NCBI GenBank assembly: GCA_012862575.1
Contig: BLSF01000004.1
Coordinates: 186,001 to 250,000, forward strand
Length of the DNA stretch: 64,000 nt
Direction: 5' to 3'
DNA from: Parietichytrium sp. I65-24A
Lineage: Eukaryota; Sar; Bigyra; Thraustochytrida; Thraustochytriidae
The translations under genes were made by a program, and so were the position numbers. Below the pieces are notes generated by a model. That model did no database searches. It was not told the DNA's origin and worked only from the letters and a program-made list of their open reading frames with translations. Every line of letters begins with the position of its first letter. Within the stretch, counting starts at the first letter, position 1. This document shows, in pieces, positions 1-44,335 of this stretch.

Positions 1-1
1 G

Positions 2-3000
2 CTGGAGAAGCAACACGCGGGGAGGCGCCAATCCTCGGTCGCCTCCACGAGACGGATCCCCAACGCAGTGTTCGAGTCAGACAAAAGCTCATCGGAAGTT
101 GACGAAGTTGACGACTCGGAATCTTCCTCGGTCAGTTCAGCTGAGAGTCCGATTAAACAAAGTGAGAGGGTGGAAATTCTTTCTTCCGGTGACCCCGTCG
201 ACATGAGGGCAGAGTTTGAGCAGATAAAGAGTATCCTCAAAGGGTTGGATTTTGAGGACCTGATTCCCCTGTTCGTGGAGAATGAGTGCACCACAATGGA
301 GGATGCCAAGGCTCTTACCCACCAGGACCTGCGGGATTGGGGTGTGGAGCTCTTCCATGACCGGGCTTCGATCATTCACAGCTTTGTAGATTACCAGCAA
401 ACCCGGTCTACTGCAGCGGCAATTTCTTCAGACTCGAGCAGCGTGCTCTCCATGAGCTCGTCAGAAACTTCGTCCGTGTCTCTTATCGAAGTGGAGGAGG
501 ACGCGGAAGGTCCTTTATCGGAGTCGTCTTCAGCGGAGAGCAGTGCAATTGAAGAAGAGTCCACTGAAGTGCAGGACCTCATGAAGAACATTGGCTACCA
601 GAGATATGCAAATTTATTTGTGGGAATGTCAATCGAGGAGGCGGAGGAGCTTGACCACGCTGTCCTTGAGGAACTCGGTGTTCTCATTGGCTCGCAGCGC
701 GAGAAGATACTTTCTGCAATTAGAAGCGTCGCACTTGAGAAGACGAAGCAGAATTTGCTTAAAGACCCTGTATCAGTGCGCCCGCGCAGGAGATCACGGC
801 AGGTGTCGCGAAAACGTGAGGCCTCCGCAGTGCCTGTTCCGGTGACGCAAATGGTTCGAGTTATACCTAGTAAGGTGAAGAGGAGCGCTTCTGCGCGCCC
901 TCCGAAAACTAGAAGAATGATAAGCTTAGAAAAGGCTTTGAAGGAGAAGCCAACGCAAGTTACCGTAACCCGGAAAAAGAGGGACTTCCACACCTTGGAC
1001 GAAGATTTTGAAGGTTTGTTGAAAAACATCGGCCTTTTAGAGTACAAACCGAAGTTTGTATCCGTTGGAAAGCTATCTTTGGAAGATGCGCGAGGTCTCA
1101 CCATGGGAGATTTGCAGGATTTGGGTATTTCTGTTTACACCCACCGAAGGCTGCTAGTGGAGCGCATCAAGGATGTTCTTGACTCGCCATCAAAAGTTGC
1201 TCTGCGTGAAAGGGTGATGGTTTCAGTGCCGGAAGACTCCGATCTGGAGAGTGACGACGAAGGTGAAATCGAAGCGGAGCTCAGCAATATCCTGGATGAG
1301 CTTGCTCTGGATTGCTACAAAGTAGACCTTTGTCGCGCAGGCTATCGTGCAGTGCGAGATTTCGAAGGGGTGACAGAACGGGACATGAGAGAAGCGGGCG
1401 TCACAAACTTTGCTCACGGGGACATATTGATTACAAAAATGCGTGAGCTTAACAAGCCTGTGCCTGCGCCTCAGGACGGGGGTGGGGCAGCGTCTTCGGA
1501 CACCACATCCGACTCGAGCAGTTCAAGCTCCGATTCAGATAGCTCGGACGCAGCTTCTGTGAAAGATACATCCGGCAGTAAGAAGAAGAAGAAGAAAAAG
1601 GGTTCTAGCGGAAAGAAGAGCGGGAAAAAGGGCTCTGACTCTGACTCGGACGACGACAAGAAAAAGAAGAAGGGCGACAAGAGCAGTGACAAAAAGAAGA
1701 AGAAAAAGAAGAAAAAGAAAGGGAAGCCTTCGAACGGAAGCGCAGCTGAGAAAAAGGAGATCAAAAAGGTGCTCACAAAAAATGAACTCGGGCACTTTTA
1801 CACCAAATTGAGCAAGGCCAAGCTTCTCAGTTTTGCAGCGCTCAAAAAGGTTTCCCACGAGGATCTGACCAAGGCAGGTATCATTCCGCTTCCTAAACGA
1901 AAGGCCATTCGCAAGCTTTTTAAGACTTACAAGCCCAAGTTCAAAGCGGAGAAGGACTCCAGCGACGACTCGGATGACGACAAAAAAGTGTCCAAGAAGA
2001 AGGCCGGAAAGAAGACAAAGAAGAAGAAGAAGAAGAAGGAGTCAAGCAGCGAGAGCTCCTCATCCAGCTCCAGTGATTCGGATGCAAAGAAAACCAAGTC
2101 GCGAAAGGCAACCAAAAATTCGAAGAAGAAGAAGAAGAAGCAGAAGAAGAGCAAGTCCGCCTCCAAAAAAGCGGCGTCTTCATCTAGTTCCTCTTCTGAT
2201 AGCGACGACGAGGAACTCGAGGCGCTGAGGAAAGCTCTTAAACGGATTGGCCAAAGCAAGGCACTGAAAAAGCTGCAGAAAGTTGGAGCGTCGAGCATCA
2301 GTGAGGTTCTAGAGATGGACAAAAAAGAAATGAAGAAGGCTGGAATCGAGTCAAGCTCGGACCGAGAGCGATTGACAAAGGCATTGAAGAAGCACGAGAA
2401 GAAGCATGGCACGAAGAAGAAGAAAAGCACCAAGTCAAAGAAGTCGAGAAAATCTCGAGCCTCGAGCTCATCCTCTTCGAGCTCCTCTTCGTCGTCATCC
2501 TCCTCCAGCTCTGGCTCGGTTGTGTCTCGAAGAAGTCGCAAGAGGTCATCTTCATCGTCGAGTAGCTCGAGTAGCTCCAGTGCGTCGAGCCGCAAAAGTA
2601 GGCGGAGCAGGCGGTCGAGCTCGAGCTCATCGTCATCATCGAGCTCAAGCTCGTCTAATTCCGGTGACGAAAGAGCTAAGATTATTGACGTCCTCGATAG
2701 CGTCAATTTGAAAAACTACGCATACCAAATTTACAACAAGTTCCCGACCATCTCTGAGTGCAAGAAATTGACTCAAACCCAACTCCGCAATGCTGGCGTT
2801 TTCATGTTGGGTGAAAGAGAAAAAATTCTGAACGCGTTTAGAGAATACGACCCGAAAAAGAAATCCTCCAAGAAGAAGCGTAGCAAGAGTCGAAGTCGCA
2901 GCAGGAGCCGCAGCAGGAGCCGTAGAAGATCGTCATCATCATCATCTTCATCATCTTCCTCGTCTTCGTCAAGATCGAGCTGGTCGTCTTCAGGTTCTGA

Positions 3001-3190
3001 CGATGACGAGTATAAGATCAAGAAAGAGTTGAGAAAACTGGATCTTTCGGAATACACAAAGGACGTCCTGAGGAAGGCGGACACTCTCAGGGAGATGAGG
3101 AGGCTGACGCACGCAGATCTGCGGGAAGCAGGGTTGACGAAGTTTACAGAGAGGGACAAAATCATCACACACTTCAAGCAGCTTAAGTAG
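2..3190 (+). CDS. SAM-domain repeat protein with Ser/Lys/RS-rich linkers (5' end outside window)
   Basis: The frame is open from base 2 to a TAG at 3188-3190 with no ATG before 203, so the true start is probably left of the window. Eight segments follow the SAM pattern (L..LGL..Y...F, then LT..DL..LG/AGI, then R.KIL). They lie at about 203-397, 560-735, 1001-1190, 1265-1450, 1750-1950, 2212-2400, 2665-2850 and 3008-3187. Linkers between the later repeats are extreme low complexity: poly-Lys runs, poly-Ser runs and an SR-dipeptide stretch near 2880-2930. SAM domains usually oligomerise or bind protein or RNA. RS and Ser/Lys tracts are typical of nuclear phosphoproteins. No enzyme domain is visible. 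A nuclear scaffold or splicing-related role is inference. The SAM calls rest on pattern only, although the eightfold repetition is clear. Confidence 0.85.
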   Translation: MEKQHAGRRQSSVASTRRIPNAVFESDKSSSEVDEVDDSESSSVSSAESPIKQSERVEILSSGDPVDMRAEFEQIKSILKGLDFEDLIPLFVENECTTMEDAKALTHQDLRDWGVELFHDRASIIHSFVDYQQTRSTAAAISSDSSSVLSMSSSETSSVSLIEVEEDAEGPLSESSSAESSAIEEESTEVQDLMKNIGYQRYANLFVGMSIEEAEELDHAVLEELGVLIGSQREKILSAIRSVALEKTKQNLLKDPVSVRPRRRSRQVSRKREASAVPVPVTQMVRVIPSKVKRSASARPPKTRRMISLEKALKEKPTQVTVTRKKRDFHTLDEDFEGLLKNIGLLEYKPKFVSVGKLSLEDARGLTMGDLQDLGISVYTHRRLLVERIKDVLDSPSKVALRERVMVSVPEDSDLESDDEGEIEAELSNILDELALDCYKVDLCRAGYRAVRDFEGVTERDMREAGVTNFAHGDILITKMRELNKPVPAPQDGGGAASSDTTSDSSSSSSDSDSSDAASVKDTSGSKKKKKKKGSSGKKSGKKGSDSDSDDDKKKKKGDKSSDKKKKKKKKKKGKPSNGSAAEKKEIKKVLTKNELGHFYTKLSKAKLLSFAALKKVSHEDLTKAGIIPLPKRKAIRKLFKTYKPKFKAEKDSSDDSDDDKKVSKKKAGKKTKKKKKKKESSSESSSSSSSDSDAKKTKSRKATKNSKKKKKKQKKSKSASKKAASSSSSSSDSDDEELEALRKALKRIGQSKALKKLQKVGASSISEVLEMDKKEMKKAGIESSSDRERLTKALKKHEKKHGTKKKKSTKSKKSRKSRASSSSSSSSSSSSSSSSSGSVVSRRSRKRSSSSSSSSSSSSASSRKSRRSRRSSSSSSSSSSSSSSNSGDERAKIIDVLDSVNLKNYAYQIYNKFPTISECKKLTQTQLRNAGVFMLGEREKILNAFREYDPKKKSSKKKRSKSRSRSRSRSRSRRRSSSSSSSSSSSSSSRSSWSSSGSDDDEYKIKKELRKLDLSEYTKDVLRKADTLREMRRLTHADLREAGLTKFTERDKIITHFKQLK

Positions 3191-3617
3191 AAGATTGAAG
3201 TAAATTTCTAAACAACAAATGCACAGCCATCTTCACCTAAATTCTGACCCCACCGTCTGCTTTCCCATGTTACAGCAGTGCGGACTGACGGTAAAATAAT
3301 GGACTGCAATCAAGTGCAATCAGTACCTTTCCGCTGGCTTTTCAACTCAGCAGTTGCTGACTGTGAGTGAAGGAGTGCTCGATTTGTCAAGAGTTGGTCG
3401 CTCGACTCATTTTCCCCCACCACTAACCAACAGAGGGCATACACCCAGCTACACAACTGCGCTAGTATTGCACACCTCAGTGGCCAGATCGCAGTGGCAA
3501 GTGGCGATTCATTGGTGAGACCAATCGAGTGGCTTTTTTTTCAATTGAAAGTCTTTTCCCAATCTGTCTGTCGCACTCGCTTCCCAGAAAGGCATGTCAT
3601 GATATTGCCATGATTGT

Positions 3618-7580: not shown

Positions 7581-8103
7581 GGCTTTGTTGAATACCTTGT
7601 ATGCGTTTGATGCTCCAAGGCCAAGGTGCCAAAGAGACTGCCGTCTTATACCTTGACAAGGTGGGGTACACTAGAAGGTCGCATTTGTGAGACTACAGTG
7701 GGTCATTATGAGCGCCGGCCCACATTACGACGGGTGCATAAACTGCCGCTTGCAACGGCAGATGACCACGGAGGAATTGAAAAGGAATCAACGACCGAGC
7801 ATATAGGAGCGCGTTCGGAGCCAGTGCATCGCTCAAGAAAATGCGCCCGGGTGCATGCCGCCCACAGTGCAATCGAGCTCTGCCGTCCACTACTCGGGTC
7901 TCCTCCAGGATCCCGGCATACCGTGCAGCTGAGTTACGCGAGTCCCTCACTCGATCAGAGAAAATTTGCACAAAGTGCGCGGCCCATCATCAAAGATCGG
8001 CCCAAGACAGCCAAACTCGAAACAGCTTTGCAGACCCCAAACGTTGAGCAAAACCCCAAGCGCCGAAGCAGACGGAACCAAACGATTGAGCCAGTACGCA
8101 ACG

Positions 8104-10395
8104 ATGCGATCATCAGCAAGTCTGTTCTTTCTTTCCGCAGCAAGTTGGATCTCCTCGACCCATGGACATGGCTACATGGTGTATCCTGCCCCTCGTAATG
8201 TCATTCACGATGGCGGCTCACTGGGACCGGGCGACATTCAGTCTATGAGCGGCGGTGGCGTGGCTCTTGAGAGCGCGAATGGCCACGGCTTGTGCGGGGA
8301 CCGATTTGACCGAAAAGAGTTCATGGCACCAAACGCATATGGCCCGCAGCTCGGATCGCAAGCATCCTTCGTTGAGGGCGACGAGATTGGAGTGACAGTC
8401 CGGATGACCGCCCATCATTGGGGCTGGTTTGAAATGCGACTTTGCAGGCCATCCGATGGAGGTTTGGATCTCACGAAACCAATTACGCAGGAGTGCCTAA
8501 ACGAGCACATTCTTACATTCAACACGACTCATGCGGAGGCCACTTACGGCGGCAAGATGAGAACCGGTGTCTCCTCACCATCTGACTACGAAGGAACGAG
8601 CTCCATATACGCCATAGAGCACGCAAAGTGCCCATATATCGAGTCTCCTGCTGGAAGCTGCTGTAATGGAGGTGGGTCGTGCTCCGCCACCACTGAAAAC
8701 AACGATCGCTGGGTTCTCCCTGACCCCGCAAAGGCAGGAATGACTTACACCATCAGGTATCAGCTTCCCGCTGGACTAGAGTGCGAACGTTGCGTCATGC
8801 AGTGGTACTACCAGACCGGGAATAGCGTTGATTCCTATCCTGAGGGCTTTTGGAACTGTGCGGACGTCGAAATTGTGGCATCTGGGGCCGCGCCTACTAC
8901 TAGCTCTCCGGTAGCCTCGCCCACACCATTGACCACGGACTCCCCAGTTCCGGAGCCAACAACACGCTCACCGACGACCATCAGCCCTAGCACAACTGAA
9001 GCACAAGACTGCCACTCCATCGTCAGCCATATCTCCGACACATGGTGCCAACAAGTGAATTGCGATCCAGTTTACTCAGACTATTGTCAGAGCGGATCCG
9101 TGTCCACCACTCCAGTGCCATCCGCAACACCGGAGCCTTCTTCGGGCAACGTGCTCACAAATTCGCCATCGCACTCCCCAAGCGCATCACCGTCCGTCAA
9201 CAAGATCAATACAGGTTCCCCGAGCGCAGCGCCTTCAACTGCGTCTCCAGTTGGGTCGGAGACCTCCTGCCACAGCCTTGTCAGCCACATCTCGGACAAA
9301 TGGTGCCAGGACGTGAACTGCGATCCCGTGTATTCTGATTTCTGTTCGGGGTCTCCCACGGGAAGCACAGTCCAACCGTCTTCGGCTCCATCCTCTGCAT
9401 CGCAGCCAACTGGGTCCCCGGTTTCACCGTCATCCACATCTCCTTCATCAACTCCTACGACGCTTCCGCTCGGTTCATCGCCAACCATCTCTTCCGGGTA
9501 CCTCCTCGACATTATCGGATACTATGGCAACAGCGGAAACGCGGTGAGCTACATCCCGCTGCTGAGCGGTGTGAAATGCTATTACAACGTTTTGATCTTG
9601 ACCTTTGCCAACTTCAACTCCGCAGGCAGCTTGGACTTTGTGATTCAAGGTCCGTACAGCAACAACTTGGCACAGCTCAAAGTGGACATTAAGGCCTGGA
9701 AGAGCGGCGTCGATCCGTTCGGCAGAACTCGTCGTGTCCTGTTCAGCATTGGTGGTCAAAACGGTGAGTGGGCATCTGGGCTCTCGGAGACGGAGATTCA
9801 CGATGAAATCGTCGCCTTCATCACAGCTTACGGTCTTGACGGGGTTGATATTGACTTGGAGGGCAGTGCTGTGGAACATGCCTCCACGCTAAAGGCAGTC
9901 ATCAGTGACCTGAAATCGGAAGGATACGTGATATCTGCAGCCCCGGAAGCTGCTCAAGGTCCTCTCACCGCGTACGGATCCATCCTTCCGTTGCTTAGTT
10001 ATGTTCACCCACAGTTCTACAACAATGGCCCAAACGCTGTTACAACGCCATTCACGCCATCTCAGAGCGGAAGCACTTGGGCTTCACCACCGTCTGATTG
10101 GCAGGCGGACACCCCTTCCGGTTACGACGGTGCTGGTACGCCATGGTGGGCAAATGTGCTACAGACCACGATCGAGTACTATGGACTCACCGACTCTCAG
10201 CGAGGCATGCTGATCCCGGCCACCCCAGAAGCTGCAGGCAACAACAACAATTGGGACATCAGTCTCTTGAAGACTCAAGTCCAAGAAGCTGGGATACTGC
10301 ATGTCGGAACTTGGGCGGTGGCCTACGACTTGAAGAACAACTGGGCCTTCGGAAAGACCATGGCCTCCATTATGGACGACACCATTACGTGCTAA
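8104..10395 (+). CDS. Secreted LPMO (AA15/AA10-like) fused to GH18 chitinase
   Basis: The frame is open from 7966 (TTG). The ATG at 8104 begins a signal peptide, giving 763 residues. Cleavage after residue 19 or 21 leaves an N-terminal His-Gly (H20-G-H22-G-Y), the copper-brace histidine of lytic polysaccharide monooxygenases. A second candidate histidine is in AHHWGWFEMRLC, and CVMQWYYQTGNS plus FWNCADVEI match the end of the AA15/AA10 fold. S/T/P-rich linkers then surround two near-identical 26-residue cysteine modules (303-328, 389-414). A GH18 chitinase domain spans about 466-763 with the full DxxDxDxE motif (DGVDIDLE, 579-586; catalytic acid E586). The LPMO would cut crystalline chitin and GH18 would hydrolyse the ends. 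Substrate is inferred from family, and the LPMO subfamily is uncertain. Confidence 0.88.
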   Translation: MRSSASLFFLSAASWISSTHGHGYMVYPAPRNVIHDGGSLGPGDIQSMSGGGVALESANGHGLCGDRFDRKEFMAPNAYGPQLGSQASFVEGDEIGVTVRMTAHHWGWFEMRLCRPSDGGLDLTKPITQECLNEHILTFNTTHAEATYGGKMRTGVSSPSDYEGTSSIYAIEHAKCPYIESPAGSCCNGGGSCSATTENNDRWVLPDPAKAGMTYTIRYQLPAGLECERCVMQWYYQTGNSVDSYPEGFWNCADVEIVASGAAPTTSSPVASPTPLTTDSPVPEPTTRSPTTISPSTTEAQDCHSIVSHISDTWCQQVNCDPVYSDYCQSGSVSTTPVPSATPEPSSGNVLTNSPSHSPSASPSVNKINTGSPSAAPSTASPVGSETSCHSLVSHISDKWCQDVNCDPVYSDFCSGSPTGSTVQPSSAPSSASQPTGSPVSPSSTSPSSTPTTLPLGSSPTISSGYLLDIIGYYGNSGNAVSYIPLLSGVKCYYNVLILTFANFNSAGSLDFVIQGPYSNNLAQLKVDIKAWKSGVDPFGRTRRVLFSIGGQNGEWASGLSETEIHDEIVAFITAYGLDGVDIDLEGSAVEHASTLKAVISDLKSEGYVISAAPEAAQGPLTAYGSILPLLSYVHPQFYNNGPNAVTTPFTPSQSGSTWASPPSDWQADTPSGYDGAGTPWWANVLQTTIEYYGLTDSQRGMLIPATPEAAGNNNNWDISLLKTQVQEAGILHVGTWAVAYDLKNNWAFGKTMASIMDDTITC
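9010..9345 (+). repeat. Duplicated cysteine module inside the chitinase gene
   Basis: Residues 303-328 and 389-414 share the pattern CHS(I/L)VSHISD.WCQ.VNCDPVYSD(Y/F)C, with four cysteines each. They are separated by a 60-residue S/T/P linker. They may be small carbohydrate-binding modules, but I cannot assign a named CBM family. Confidence 0.85.
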
Positions 10396-37977: not shown

Positions 37978-38041
37978 GCGGACGGCGATTGATGTTGTAC
38001 AGTAGGTAGCTTCAAGGCGCTTGGGTGCAGGTGGTCAGGCC

Positions 38042-41000
38042 ATGTTGAGGGATGGCGGCAAGGCGCCAGGGTCAGAGGCGGAGCAGAAGGAGAAGGAGAC
38101 GGAGAAGCAGAAGCAGAAGCATGAGGAAGAGATAGAGATAGAGACAGGGCGAGATGAGTGGGGCTTGAGAGAGGCGCGCGTAGAGTCGGTGGGAACTGGG
38201 TCGATCTACTCGCTGCAGGACTCGCGAAGGGCGCGGACGGAACCGGATCCGTACTACCACGGAAAATTTGGGTTTGGACAATACCCGCTGCAGTTTAATG
38301 AATACGTGCTGGGATGCGTGTCCCGCACGAACCCGGTCCGCGCCGTGTGTATTAGTTTGGTGCGGACGACGTGGTTCGAGTCGTTTATCCTGATTGTGAT
38401 CCTGATGAGCTCGATCTTGATGGCCTTGTACAACCCGGTCGCGGCGACGGTCGGTGCGCCGAACGAAATCAACAGCATATCCGACGGATTTGAATGGTTC
38501 TTCCAGGTAGTATTTTCGTTGGAATTCCTGGTCAAAGCCCTCGCCGTTGGGCCCTTCAGCAAGCCTTCGGGGTACTTTCGCGAGTCATGGAATGTTCTCG
38601 ACTTTTTCATCGTCGTTCTAGGGTGGATTCCTCTTTTGGTCGGTGTGGCGCGGCCGCAAGACTCGCAATCCAGCGGGGTGTCCACTTCCACGTTCGTTGT
38701 CTTTCGCAGCGTAAGGGTGCTTCGACCGCTCCGCGCACTTCACTTCTTCCCCAAGCTCAAGCAGTTAGTCAGTGCTATTCTCCGCAGCGCAAGGTCAATA
38801 GGGGAAGTGATGATTCTATGCTTTTCCATACTTACCATCTTCGCCTTGGTGGGTGTGACCCTGTTCAAAGGCAAGCTACGCCAGCACTGCGCCGTTTATG
38901 ACTTAGAAACAGAGACCTGGGCAATCCCAACGGACGAGGTGGAGCAATACTGCTCGTTCGACGATGCTAGTTTTGGCCGCAAATGCCCGGCGGGGCTCAC
39001 TTGCATCACCAGCGATATTAATCCTGACCTCGGGCTGACCAACTTTGACAACTTGGCTTTTTCCTTGCTTACGGTGTTTCAGGTCATTACCCTGGAGGGC
39101 TGGAGCACGATCATGTACGCTCTTTTCGACACGACATTCACGTACGTCGGCATCTATTTCATCCTCCTCATATTATTTGGCAACTATTTCACCATCAACC
39201 TCGTCATCAGCGCGCTTAGTGTGAACTACATGATTGTGCGTAAGGAGGGCGAAAAGAAAAATGAGCTGGAGAACGAGCGCATCAGCTTTATGGACAACCT
39301 CGTAGCTGATGCCGAGCGGAAGGCGGCCCGGCACCACAAATTTCTCGCCCTTCCCGTGAAGACGCAGGTCAGGTACATGCAGATGCGGCTCATGTTCTCT
39401 TTTGACCTCCATCATCAAGATCCGTATTACTCCTTGGTGAGCAAGGAGGAGTACAAGAGATACGCGGAGCTCAACAAGGACTTGTACCCCAGGTGGAAGG
39501 CCAAAATGCACAAAAAGTTTAGAAGTATGCAGCGCAGGAGCACAGGAGGCACGACAAATAACTTTCGCGTGCGCAGTCTCATAAAAAAGTCATTTGAAAT
39601 GCGGGACTTGGAAGCCAAGGATATTACACAGATAGTCCCCAGCAAATCATCTTCGGGAGAAAATACCTCTGCGCACTCCTCTAACACTAGCGCCAGAGCC
39701 CGCGACGAGGATATCTTTCTGGAGCCCCTCAGCTCGCTTCATCAGGTTTACAACGCTACTCGGATGGAGGAAGGACGCACAAATCTTCAAGACCAACCCA
39801 AGGGCGGGCAAGGAGGTGACGACGAGGGGGTGCCTGACGCACAGGTACGAGAGCCGCTGCCGCAGCCGCAGGAAACTCGTCTCCTCAAGAGACCAAGCCT
39901 TCCTCCCAAACAGCCTTCGTCATACTCTGATGCAACAGATGGCGATTCTTTCCGCGGGGTGGAGTCGGAATCTAGCATGGATGGGGAGAAGAAAGGCGAA
40001 CCCGTCCTGCGCCAAGTATCCGGCTCGAGCTCAGAAGGCGTTGATTCTGCTGGGCGACTAGCGCTCAATAGCGTCATTTCCCGAGACTCGATCGGGATGT
40101 TGACGTCTCCAACTCTGGCATCTGCCTCTGCATCCAGTGAACCAAAGAAGCGTCTTGTGCCGCTGGGTTCACAGACTGACGCCCATCCCATTCGGCGTTG
40201 GATATGGGCATACATTGTTCACCGCAAGTGGTTCAAATTTTTGGTGATGTTCATGATCTTTGCCAATACCGCAGTGATTGGCAGCGAGTTCTTTGGCCAA
40301 CCTTTATGGATGTTCACGTTTCTCTACGTGAGCAACCTGGTCTTTCTCGCGTTTTATACTTTAGAGGTGGTCTTGCGCATCATAGCTGACGGACATAGGT
40401 ATTACTTTGCCAGCCCGTTCAATTGGTTCGATTGCGTCATTGTTGCCACGGGATATATTGAACTCTGCTTTGTAAGCAGTACTGTAGCGAGTGTGTTCAG
40501 GCTCTTGCGAATCTTGCGATTCATCAAGCTGGCACACTATTGGCCAACCTTTGCGAATCTGCTCGATGGTTTGAAGGAGACCCTCAAGCAGCTCTTCCCG
40601 TTCCTCATCTTCTTTTCCCTCTTCTTGTACATATTCACCGTGTCGGGATTGCATTTGTTGGGCGGCAAGCTTACCGTAGATCTCAACTCTACGGAGACAC
40701 CTTTTGTTTTCACCGAGGCATACTCTTCGGGTTACTCTTTGTCCGCTATCAGCAACATATCGAACGATGCTATAGAGGAGCCAAATCCGGACTTTGACTG
40801 CACCAAGACTGTGGGCAGCTTTTTCTGGAGTCTTCCAAATGGGTCTTCTGTGTGGCACTGCCCTCCAAGGACCAATTACGATACGTTGTTGTGGTCTCTG
40901 GTCACCACTTTTCAGGTCATCACTGGGGAGGACTGGAATGGCGTCATGTTCCTCGTGGTAGAAAATACTGGATCATACTGGTATCTGTTGTACTTCCTCG

Positions 41001-44000
41001 TTATTGTCATTTTCGGCGGCTATGTGGTGCTGAACTTCTTTCTTGCGATTTTGGTGGACACCTTTGTGGACCTGCACATGAAGAGGGAGGAAGAGAGGAG
41101 GCGCAAGCGCCTTGCCAAGGCTCTCCGAAAAAACGCCCCAAAAGCTGGTATCGGAAGCGGCTCTAGTTTAACCCGGGATGATGCCTCCGGGGGAGCGGGG
41201 AATGGAATGAGTTCAATGACCTTGAACAGCGATCGGGAGGACATTTTCGGCTCATCTCGCCCTTCGCTGCCCCGGCCTGGCTCCATTACCACGCCCCGAT
41301 CCAAAAAGTCACCAGTGACAGCGGAAGACAAATCTTTAAAAGCACCGGTGAACAGCACAGTCTCGCCACCAGTGTCGTTCACGCCTCTTTCTCCGCCAAG
41401 CTTGACTCCAGCAACAGGCGCCAATGACGACTCTCCAGAGTCTTCCAGCACCTCCGCGTCAGCGACGAGCGCAAACCATGTGGCGATATCGCAAACGTCT
41501 GACATTGTGCGGAAGGACACTCAACTCGCTCGGCCATCCTTGTTATTCTCGCCCTCGGGGACCATTGGTTCTGACTCGTTGAACTTTGATCGCATGCACA
41601 ATTCGAGGGGTCTCACTAGATTAAGATCAAGGAAGCGCTCTTCGCTGCGAGATGTCGTACAAAAGAAGCAGCGAAAGACGTACAATTTTACAGCGGAAGA
41701 GGTGCAGGAGCTACCAGCATTTAAGCGCAACGCGTTGTGCTTCGTTAAGCCAACCAATCGCTTTCGAGTGTTGGCGGGCGTCCTTATTCACAAGTCATGG
41801 TTTGATGTGACCATCTTGGTGGTCATCGTGATCAGCTGCGTTCTGCTTGCGATAGATGCCCCAGCTTCTTCGGTCAACGAAAACGTGATGTACGGGCTCA
41901 ATGTCGCCATCACCACCATATTTGCAATTGAGGCGGCTCTCAAAATCTTTGCGCTGGGATTCCTTTTCGGCAAAGGGTCGTACATGCGAAGCCGATGGAA
42001 TATTCTGGATTTTGTCATTCTTGTGGTGTCTATCCTCGACGTAGCATTTCCGGCAAGTAATGCGAGCGTTTTTCAGGTGTTGCGCGCTCTGCGGTGTCTT
42101 CGGCCGCTTCGCACTGTCCAAAAATTCGACGGCCTCCGAGTGGTGGTAAAGTCTTTTGCTTTAGCGATCATTCCATGCGCGCAAGTCATGGTTCTCTGTG
42201 TCATATTCTACGCTATCTTCTCGATTTGCGCGCTGAACTTCTTCTCTGGTGAATTTTACTCCTGTTACGAATGCACCCTTGGCGTGGGTATAGAAGATGT
42301 GGTTTGTCAGCGACCGTATGGCTCGGACGTGGTGCGCGACTGTATGGTGTATCCTAACTACGATGTGACGGATGTGCAGTGCCCCGCGTCCCGAATTTGT
42401 CTTGGCGAAGACCCTTCCAGAAACGTTTCTTTTCAATGGCTGCGCCCGACCTATGGCAGCTTGACATTTACGTCTTCAACGTCACGGACCTACAGCTTCG
42501 ACAGCTTTCCCGCCAGCTTCTTAGTACTCTTTGAGCTGTCCTCAATGGAAATGTGGATGGAGCCCATGTACTTTGCCAGCGATACCACCGGCATCGGGTA
42601 TAATCCAATACGTGGATCGAGCGACGGCACCGCGGTCTTCTTCCTCATTTTTCTGTTCTTTATGCAATTCTTCATGCTGCAGGTGTTTGTTGCGGTTCTT
42701 ATTGACACATACTTTGATTCTTCCAACGAAGAGAAAGGAGATGCGTTCATGACGAGCGAGCAGCGCAGATGGGTTGACTATAACCGGAAGGCTTTGGCGC
42801 GCCCCTTCAAGCCTCACAGCGCTCTGATGCAGCCAAAGAACCCCGTTCGGAAACTATGCTACAACGTTGTTGTGAGCCTTCCTTTCAAGCTCTTCATCTT
42901 GGGTACGATTATCGCGAACACGGTGTTCCTAATGACGGACCACTTTGACGAGGCGCCCAGCTACGAAATGGCTTCGTTCGTCCTGGATATTCTCTTTGGC
43001 GTCATATACATCCTCGAAGCAATCATGAAGATTGTTGGGCTTGGGCCCAAAAAATACTTCACGCGAAAAAGCGACATGTTTGACTTTGTCATCGTGCTAG
43101 CTGTCATCACCGGCTGGGTCATCGACCTGAGCTTGCAGGGGACCAGTGAATTTGAGTCCATTTTCAGGGCCATTGAGGCACTCCGAGCGTTGAGGGTTAT
43201 TCGAATCTTCAAATTTGTGCCGGCCCTGCGGCCACTGATTTCGACTCTCATCTTTACAATCTACCCGCTGCTTAATATCCTGAGCCTGATCATTCTGGTG
43301 CTCTTCATTTACTCGGTTCTCGGCATGCAGCTGTTTGGCGGTCTGGACCCTGAAGTGTACCCGGGAGATCAGATGGAATTCGTTTCGGATCACGTCAATT
43401 TTCGCAATTTCCCGAATGCCTTTTTTGCCCTTTTTGTCATGAGCACAGGGGAGAGCTGGAACGGGGTGATGCATGACCTCGCTGTGTATTCGCCGCATGC
43501 AATCTGGTTCTGTGTTTCCTTTGTGGTGGTAATGCAGCTGTTTTTGTTGAACCTTTTCGTAGCTGTAATTCTAGCTAGCTTCACCGCCCAGTTCGAAGAG
43601 TCGAAGAGTCGAAACGGAATCAAGGAACACTTGGACGAGCTTGCTCTGAAAAACTACAACAAGGAGTGGAACGCTGTGCACTACGCTTACGTCAACTCTC
43701 TGCGCCGGAAATTGCGAGAGGCGGAAAAATCGAAGGACTCCGATGCGATCGACATTGCTCGCCAACGACTTCGTGACGCAATAAAGAACCCTCGCTTCAT
43801 CCCAGCTCAAAAGTTTCCGGAACTCATGCTTCGTCTCGAAGCACCTCTGGGCTTTCGGAAGCGGTCTTCCAAGGCAAAGTTTACTGTTGGGCATGTCATG
43901 CAGTACGTCAGAGACAAGCACATTCCTGTGACGAAGCAAGGATTGATCCATTTCTATGCGACTCTAAGTGCGCTAATCGACATCAACGTCCTGCAAGGTG

Positions 44001-44335
44001 AAGTCCCAAAAGAAATCGAGGAGTTTTTGCGCCTGAAAGTCGCAAATTACTCCAAAGCACTCAGTTCCAAGACCCCTGCAGACCCTGGCCGTCCGTCCGA
44101 TCTCACCACAATTCTCGCTCGCGAACAAATCAAGTCGCTTATTCAGACACATCTGCTGCATTGGAAGATGCGTCACATGAGAAAACACGGTGCGAGCAAT
44201 GACCGGATTCGGCAGTATCTTAAAGAAGCTCTGAGGCGTGCAGAACACATAGCAGAGGGCAGTGTTCAGGCACCTGTTAGTGCATCGCCCTTGAGCCCCG
44301 CTCGTCAGCTTTTTGGAAAAACTGTAAAACAATGA
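38042..44335 (+). CDS. Four-domain voltage-gated calcium channel alpha-1 subunit
   Basis: 2097 residues from the ATG at 38042 (G at -3). Four homologous six-helix domains are visible. The S4 voltage sensors have Arg/Lys every third residue: FRSVRVLRPLRALHF, FRLLRILRFIKLAHY, VLRALRCLRPLRTV and LRALRVIRIFKFVPALR. The selectivity-filter residues are all Glu: E352 (TLEGW), E963 (TGEDW), E1503 (SMEMW) and E1804 (TGESW). That is the EEEE ring of calcium-selective Cav channels. The I-II and II-III loops are long, Ser-rich and unconserved. The C-terminus has the Cav-like FIPAQKFPELMLRLEAPLGF and an IQ-like EQIKSLIQTHLLHWKMRHMRK region for calmodulin. It should open on depolarisation at the plasma or ciliary membrane. 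The Cav class cannot be assigned. Its stop is 149 bases from the convergent TMEM131-like gene. Confidence 0.95.
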   Translation: MLRDGGKAPGSEAEQKEKETEKQKQKHEEEIEIETGRDEWGLREARVESVGTGSIYSLQDSRRARTEPDPYYHGKFGFGQYPLQFNEYVLGCVSRTNPVRAVCISLVRTTWFESFILIVILMSSILMALYNPVAATVGAPNEINSISDGFEWFFQVVFSLEFLVKALAVGPFSKPSGYFRESWNVLDFFIVVLGWIPLLVGVARPQDSQSSGVSTSTFVVFRSVRVLRPLRALHFFPKLKQLVSAILRSARSIGEVMILCFSILTIFALVGVTLFKGKLRQHCAVYDLETETWAIPTDEVEQYCSFDDASFGRKCPAGLTCITSDINPDLGLTNFDNLAFSLLTVFQVITLEGWSTIMYALFDTTFTYVGIYFILLILFGNYFTINLVISALSVNYMIVRKEGEKKNELENERISFMDNLVADAERKAARHHKFLALPVKTQVRYMQMRLMFSFDLHHQDPYYSLVSKEEYKRYAELNKDLYPRWKAKMHKKFRSMQRRSTGGTTNNFRVRSLIKKSFEMRDLEAKDITQIVPSKSSSGENTSAHSSNTSARARDEDIFLEPLSSLHQVYNATRMEEGRTNLQDQPKGGQGGDDEGVPDAQVREPLPQPQETRLLKRPSLPPKQPSSYSDATDGDSFRGVESESSMDGEKKGEPVLRQVSGSSSEGVDSAGRLALNSVISRDSIGMLTSPTLASASASSEPKKRLVPLGSQTDAHPIRRWIWAYIVHRKWFKFLVMFMIFANTAVIGSEFFGQPLWMFTFLYVSNLVFLAFYTLEVVLRIIADGHRYYFASPFNWFDCVIVATGYIELCFVSSTVASVFRLLRILRFIKLAHYWPTFANLLDGLKETLKQLFPFLIFFSLFLYIFTVSGLHLLGGKLTVDLNSTETPFVFTEAYSSGYSLSAISNISNDAIEEPNPDFDCTKTVGSFFWSLPNGSSVWHCPPRTNYDTLLWSLVTTFQVITGEDWNGVMFLVVENTGSYWYLLYFLVIVIFGGYVVLNFFLAILVDTFVDLHMKREEERRRKRLAKALRKNAPKAGIGSGSSLTRDDASGGAGNGMSSMTLNSDREDIFGSSRPSLPRPGSITTPRSKKSPVTAEDKSLKAPVNSTVSPPVSFTPLSPPSLTPATGANDDSPESSSTSASATSANHVAISQTSDIVRKDTQLARPSLLFSPSGTIGSDSLNFDRMHNSRGLTRLRSRKRSSLRDVVQKKQRKTYNFTAEEVQELPAFKRNALCFVKPTNRFRVLAGVLIHKSWFDVTILVVIVISCVLLAIDAPASSVNENVMYGLNVAITTIFAIEAALKIFALGFLFGKGSYMRSRWNILDFVILVVSILDVAFPASNASVFQVLRALRCLRPLRTVQKFDGLRVVVKSFALAIIPCAQVMVLCVIFYAIFSICALNFFSGEFYSCYECTLGVGIEDVVCQRPYGSDVVRDCMVYPNYDVTDVQCPASRICLGEDPSRNVSFQWLRPTYGSLTFTSSTSRTYSFDSFPASFLVLFELSSMEMWMEPMYFASDTTGIGYNPIRGSSDGTAVFFLIFLFFMQFFMLQVFVAVLIDTYFDSSNEEKGDAFMTSEQRRWVDYNRKALARPFKPHSALMQPKNPVRKLCYNVVVSLPFKLFILGTIIANTVFLMTDHFDEAPSYEMASFVLDILFGVIYILEAIMKIVGLGPKKYFTRKSDMFDFVIVLAVITGWVIDLSLQGTSEFESIFRAIEALRALRVIRIFKFVPALRPLISTLIFTIYPLLNILSLIILVLFIYSVLGMQLFGGLDPEVYPGDQMEFVSDHVNFRNFPNAFFALFVMSTGESWNGVMHDLAVYSPHAIWFCVSFVVVMQLFLLNLFVAVILASFTAQFEESKSRNGIKEHLDELALKNYNKEWNAVHYAYVNSLRRKLREAEKSKDSDAIDIARQRLRDAIKNPRFIPAQKFPELMLRLEAPLGFRKRSSKAKFTVGHVMQYVRDKHIPVTKQGLIHFYATLSALIDINVLQGEVPKEIEEFLRLKVANYSKALSSKTPADPGRPSDLTTILAREQIKSLIQTHLLHWKMRHMRKHGASNDRIRQYLKEALRRAEHIAEGSVQAPVSASPLSPARQLFGKTVKQ

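Follow-up and report, generated by a model that had tools for sequence, protein, structure and literature searches.

A thraustochytrid protein with eight SAM domains and charged, serine-rich linkers, a possible phosphorylation-tuned scaffold

The genome of the thraustochytrid Parietichytrium sp. I65-24A (assembly of 42.5 Mb in 172 contigs) encodes a 1107-residue protein, P0002, that carries eight SAM domains. Its gene lies at the edge of the window analysed here, a 64,000-nucleotide stretch of contig BLSF01000004.1 (G000:C4:186001-250000). We propose, with a probability of roughly 45%, that P0002 is a multivalent, beads-on-a-string SAM scaffold in which phosphorylation tunes the charge of the linkers, with the nucleus as its likeliest location.

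Results

Eight SAM domains in one intact frame

The forward strand is open as a single frame from window position 2 to 3190, with the stop codon at 3188-3190 and no in-window stop upstream. The window edge truncates the gene: reading beyond it places the ATG at G000:C4:185867, 134 bp 5′ of window base 1, and the in-window part encodes residues 46-1107 and the stop. The complete product is encoded by one uninterrupted, intronless frame, and SAM and linker residues are numbered on this full-length protein. No SAM domain was found by repeat profile or Pfam in the residues added upstream of the window.

The eight-fold SAM array described in a sequence-only reading of this DNA is confirmed by Pfam, an independent repeat profile with shuffles, and structure predictions. 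Against SAM_2, the whole protein scores 113.8 bits (cut-off 20.5). Scored singly, six of the eight segments exceed a Pfam SAM-family cut-off, namely SAM1 (28.2 bits against 20.5), SAM2 (28.6 against 23), SAM3 (30.8 against 20.5), SAM5 (27.9 against 25, SAM_TNK), SAM6 (22.8 against 20.5) and SAM8 (26.8 against 20.5); SAM4 (16.5 against 23) and SAM7 (18.7 against 23) fall short. A profile built from ten repeats of one different protein recovers all eight at 14.7-61.0 bits, and none of 200 shuffles of each repeat reaches the real score, the top shuffle scoring 7.8. A profile of 23 repeats from two other proteins, which is not independent because paralogous positions are among its repeats, finds eight domains in full-length P0002 (22.7-64.5 bits).

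Structure prediction, which covered SAM3, SAM4, SAM7 and SAM8, returned a five-helix SAM fold for SAM3, SAM7 and SAM8, with confident models for the last two, and a low-confidence, four-helix model for SAM4, the weakest repeat. Among solved sequences, the repeat profile has 57 matches at E ≤ 0.01, the nearest coming from scaffold and receptor proteins (ANKS1A, Caskin, Eph, tankyrase). Beyond SAM families, a Pfam scan of P0002 at E ≤ 0.01, the threshold for all Pfam negatives below, gave nothing but a below-cut-off match to SR-25.

Linker composition and charge

Poly-Ser, poly-Lys and arginine-serine (RS) linkers between the SAMs, as first reported, are borne out by residue counts and runs. Of the 1107 residues of P0002, Ser accounts for 217, Lys for 157 and Arg for 80, and the longest homopolymer runs are 17 Ser and 10 Lys. 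The linkers vary from 28 to 97 residues and change in character from the N to the C terminus, from Ser/Asp/Glu through Ser/Lys to poly-Ser/RS. Those preceding SAM2 and SAM4 are acidic and that preceding SAM3 is Arg/Lys-rich, while Lys runs of 10, 7 and 4 precede SAM5, SAM6 and SAM7, respectively. The two linkers ahead of SAM7 and SAM8 hold poly-Ser runs of 17 and 14 together with 26 of the 33 linker RS/SR dipeptides. The linkers preceding SAM5 and SAM6 combine Lys runs with Ser/Asp clusters and have seven matches each to S/T-x-x-D/E, the casein-kinase-2 pattern.

With phosphorylation left out, the net charge is -22 over residues 1-535 (SAM1-4) and +98 over residues 536-1107 (SAM5-8). The 77 Ser in runs of at least six use all six Ser codons, and window positions 1-3300 give just four tandem-repeat rows, with scores of 50-55; the Ser tracts are therefore not a simple DNA repeat.

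Interface residues

In tankyrase polymers, a basic end-helix bearing an aromatic residue packs against an acidic mid-loop, as described in the available part of PMC4980433. The interface residues given there were mapped onto the repeats through an alignment of SAM8 with tankyrase-2. All three features (acidic mid-loop, aromatic residue, basic end-helix half) occur together in one repeat of eight, SAM3. SAM1 keeps the acidic mid-loop and the Phe (two of three), but the net charge of its end-helix half is -2. In SAM2 the mid-loop is strongly acidic and the aromatic residue is missing, SAM4 carries Phe and His on the side of the end-helix, and the net charge of SAM5-8 is positive. By this mapping, the earlier description of these modules as oligomerisation-type suits some of the repeats only, those other than SAM3 showing the signature in part. 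The incomplete signature across the repeats therefore favours heterotypic contacts over a homopolymer, and multivalency, in the sense of several SAMs along one chain, is supported by the array.

A multi-SAM family in the same genome

Searching the genome with the in-window part of P0002 listed 17 matches: besides P0002 itself, ten piecewise matches on contig C14 with 35-58% identity and six, 31-41% identical, on C4 or C44. Contig C14 carries a paralogue (L048) with about 14 SAM repeats (P1-P14). A single N at L048:6068 interrupts P10, and P11 is in a different frame, leaving 12 repeats intact and two interrupted; the N and the frame change at about 6190 possibly reflect an assembly problem in similar repeats. 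The two proteins have linker types in common and a C-terminal part that is much more basic. The paralogue differs in its number of SAMs, in having its RS linkers in the C-terminal part, in an additional C-terminal segment and in an N-terminal part that is not acidic. A short LLF-L/V-SEL motif was seen by eye ahead of the first acidic Ser stretch in both (L010:2960-3010 and the N-terminal region of the C14 frame); a search with the N terminus of P0002 did not retrieve it.

SAM1-5 of P0002 match SAM1-5 of the paralogue one-to-one, the pairs W1-P1 to W5-P5 being starred in all five cases in a 31-repeat tree, in which 21 of the 28 inner branches are open. In all 14 repeat pairs compared, the proportion of differing synonymous sites (pS, 0.74-0.97) exceeds that of nonsynonymous sites (pN, 0.19-0.51). 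Synonymous divergence (dS) is saturated, and a ratio to nonsynonymous divergence (dN/dS) is therefore not given. Because SAM1-5 pair one-to-one and synonymous sites are saturated while the protein sequence is retained, the pair forms an old family kept by selection.

A third multi-SAM protein, a 3092-residue frame, lies about 130 kb downstream on the contig of P0002 itself (G000:C4 about 316.9-326.2 kb; L012:2-7186 and L011:2911-9900). Besides roughly ten SAM repeats it contains two SPRY stretches and LRR, and it ends in a NEL domain (82.2 bits, cut-off 24). NEL, a ubiquitin-ligase domain known chiefly from bacteria, has twelve matches above cut-off in this genome (for example on C22, C6, C63 and C44), in frames of 301-3092 residues. 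NLR genes of an alga carry a NEL-like domain (available part of PMC7145615), and a limited literature search found no report of a protist NEL-domain family.

Genome-wide, SAM_2 has 48 listed matches at E ≤ 0.05, 45 of them above cut-off, and SAM_1 has 32 at E ≤ 0.001. Neither list takes introns into account and both undercount arrays, the SPRY-LRR-SAM-NEL protein taking up just two rows in each, and more SAM arrays may therefore exist.

Feature coordinates and other genes

The features of the multi-SAM gene are collected in Table 1. Elsewhere in the window, positions 7933-10392 hold LPMO_10 and GH18 domains fused in one frame and separated, by eye, by two repeats that contain Cys, and positions 38006-44332 encode a 2109-residue ion channel in a single frame with four Ion_trans stretches. 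A 5583-residue frame at G000:C66, met in a search for the omega-3 protein PfaA, is a large multidomain protein resembling polyketide or fatty-acid synthases.

Table 1. Domains and linkers of the multi-SAM gene, in window coordinates.
Feature	Coordinates	Strand	Characteristics	Basis
Multi-SAM gene body	2..3190	+	Residues 46-1107 and stop	Open frame
SAM1	212..400	+	aa 116-178; acidic (net -9); acidic mid-loop; Phe at end-helix position; end-helix half net -2	Pfam, repeat profile, tankyrase mapping
Acidic Ser/Glu linker	401..565	+	55 aa; 20 Ser, 10 Glu	Residue counts
SAM2	566..736	+	aa 234-290; acidic mid-loop; end-helix without aromatic residue	Pfam, repeat profile, tankyrase mapping
Basic Arg/Lys linker	737..1003	+	89 aa; 14 Arg, 12 Lys	Residue counts
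SAM3	1004..1183	+	aa 380-439; entire tankyrase-like interface; predicted five-helix SAM fold	Pfam, structure prediction, tankyrase mapping
Short acidic linker	1184..1267	+	28 aa	Residue counts
SAM4	1268..1456	+	aa 468-530; under Pfam cut-off singly; 60% identity to paralogue SAM4; low-confidence model	Pfam, repeat profile, structure prediction
Ser/Asp then Lys linker	1457..1747	+	97 aa; 25 Ser, 29 Lys, 14 Asp; Lys run of 10; 7 S/T-x-x-D/E sites	Residue counts
SAM5	1748..1936	+	aa 628-690; strongly basic (net +13)	Pfam, repeat profile, tankyrase mapping
Ser/Asp/Lys linker	1937..2209	+	91 aa; 28 Ser, 33 Lys; 7 S/T-x-x-D/E sites	Residue counts
SAM6	2210..2401	+	aa 782-845; basic (net +7); divergent	Pfam, repeat profile, tankyrase mapping
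Poly-Ser/RS linker	2402..2668	+	89 aa; 55 Ser, longest run 17; 11 RS/SR dipeptides	Residue counts
SAM7	2669..2854	+	aa 935-996; under Pfam cut-off singly; predicted five-helix SAM fold; predicted local distance difference test (pLDDT) 89-96 by full 10-residue blocks	Pfam, repeat profile, structure prediction
RS/poly-Ser linker	2855..3001	+	49 aa; 29 Ser; 15 RS/SR dipeptides	Residue counts
SAM8	3002..3187	+	aa 1046-1107; C-terminal end of protein; predicted five-helix SAM fold; pLDDT 91-94 by full 10-residue blocks	Pfam, structure prediction

Discussion

In the proposed scaffold, SAMs would make weak, often heterotypic head-to-tail contacts, end-helix against mid-loop, within the chain, between chains and with the 14-SAM paralogue. 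These contacts would build a network or condensate, not a single filament. Within P0002, pairing could occur between the N-terminal half, which is acidic and holds SAM1-4, and the basic C-terminal half with SAM5-8. Once phosphorylated, the poly-Ser, Ser/Asp (casein-kinase-2-type) and RS (SR-kinase-type) linkers would have their positive charge reduced or inverted, and this would loosen the network or weaken its hold on RNA or DNA. For Polyhomeotic, the available text of PMC7644731 reports that an acidic linker restricts SAM polymerisation, whereas it is promoted by the PHC3 linker and by a synthetic one with a basic isoelectric point. By analogy, we infer that phosphorylation of the Ser tracts would shift the linkers from basic toward acidic and so act as a switch.

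Lys blocks favour nucleolar partitioning (PMC10936679, in part) and speckle proteins contain polyserine stretches (PMC9934293, in part). Because of these two associations, and given the Lys blocks and RS tracts of P0002, the nucleus, in a nucleolus or speckle-like body, is the leading guess for its site, and the nuclear, phosphorylation-tuned condensate role suggested by the sequence-only reading is plausible and not without precedent. The charges of the paralogue weigh against part of this proposal: with SAM1-4 close to neutrality, an N-terminal part at +8 and two C-terminal pieces at +74 and +51, it argues against pairing of acidic and basic halves as a family rule.

An alternative that we consider unlikely, though the most credible of those weighed, is a cytoplasmic or cortical scaffold at the membrane, cytoskeleton or adhesion sites, resembling liprins, Caskins and ANKS proteins, with basic Lys/Arg/Ser linkers that bind acidic lipids, microtubules or RNA and are no sign of a nuclear protein. 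ANKS1A, Caskin, Eph and tankyrase, which supply the closest solved SAMs, act in the cytoplasm, and another SAM-bearing frame, on C75, looks myosin-like by eye. However, the long Lys blocks and RS tracts look like those of nucleolar and speckle proteins, and besides SAM families the Pfam scan gives only the SR-25 match.

Rather improbable is a role in organising RNA processing, with some SAMs binding RNA in the manner of Vts1/Smaug and the RS linkers recruiting splicing factors. The RS tracts ahead of SAM7 and SAM8, the SR-25 match (a splicing-associated protein; 20.9 bits against a cut-off of 40) and the Vts1 SAM at rank 17 in the fold comparison are consistent with it. Yet no Vts1/Smaug chain is among the 57 solved-sequence matches of the repeat profile, although the in-window part of P0002 does give a weak Vts1 match (E 0.69), and Pfam finds no RRM or other RNA-binding family in P0002. 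It is doubtful, too, that P0002, the 14-SAM paralogue and the SPRY-LRR-SAM-NEL protein co-assemble through their related repeats into a lineage-specific, phosphorylation-tuned body to which a NEL-type ubiquitin ligase would be recruited by its own SAM array.

SARM1 has tandem SAMs, which form a ring, and entry titles describe its solved structure as an octamer; that the eight SAMs of one P0002 chain close into a ring or a single SAM-helix turn, a defined particle rather than a network, is nevertheless very improbable, given that the number of SAMs is not fixed at eight (the paralogue has about 14), very unequal linkers and interface residues that are not retained across all repeats. Least credible is a neutrally drifting low-complexity gene whose SAM remnants bind nothing: SAM4 and SAM7 fall below Pfam cut-offs singly, SAM6 is divergent and low-complexity tracts expand readily, but the 1107-codon frame is intact, the Ser codons are mixed and the pS and pN values in all 14 repeat pairs argue against it.

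The proposed scaffold departs from known SAM proteins in several respects. Tankyrase, polyhomeotic, ANKS3 and Bicc1 carry a single SAM per chain and polymerise between chains; P0002 shares their fold, with the entire interface in SAM3 and most of it in SAM1, but its other repeats are without part of the signature. Ankyrin repeats beside the SAMs are the hallmark of Caskin and ANKS proteins, with SH3 in addition in Caskin, and P0002 has no Pfam match to either. Animal multi-SAM scaffolds (Caskin, ANKS1, liprins) provide the nearest solved sequences and folds and, like P0002, hold several SAMs per chain. According to the available text of PMC10252437, multi-SAM proteins (SASH1, SARM1, ANKS1, liprins, Caskins) have at least two SAMs, liprins being the sole group with three, preceded by N-terminal coiled coils. 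The SAMs of Caskin, ANKS1 and liprins serve inter- and intramolecular SAM-SAM contacts and are two or three in number and mostly adjacent (PMC10252437), in contrast to the eight of P0002 with their charged spacers.

RS dipeptides and poly-Ser runs are shared with SR and speckle proteins (SR-25, SRRM2, pinin), but SR proteins join RRM to RS, whereas P0002 joins RS tracts to a SAM array and has no RRM match. Nopp140 is made up of Ser/Asp clusters alternating with Lys blocks. Nucleolar proteins of the Nopp140/treacle type share this alternation with P0002 (Lys-block grammar, PMC10936679, in part); P0002 differs in having SAMs and no SRP40_C match, a separate gene on C63 encoding SRP40_C in this genome.

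The sequence-only reading knew of no other protein combining eight SAMs with RS tracts. That view gains from the cited review, whose available text tops out at three SAMs, and loses from the 14-SAM RS paralogue and the third multi-SAM protein of the same genome. A limited literature search on eight-SAM proteins, on protist SAMs with RS, Ser-rich or Lys-rich tracts, and on thraustochytrid SAMs found nothing of this kind, and similar proteins may already be on record without a name.

If the scaffold reading is true, P0002 would represent a naturally occurring sticker-and-spacer protein, its eight folded stickers (about 14 in the paralogue) joined by charge-switchable spacers; the multi-SAM proteins reviewed in the available text of PMC10252437 reach two or three. 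Paralogues that differ in sticker number would make valence and linker charge testable as causes of assembly, and the use of SAM arrays outside animals would be broadened.
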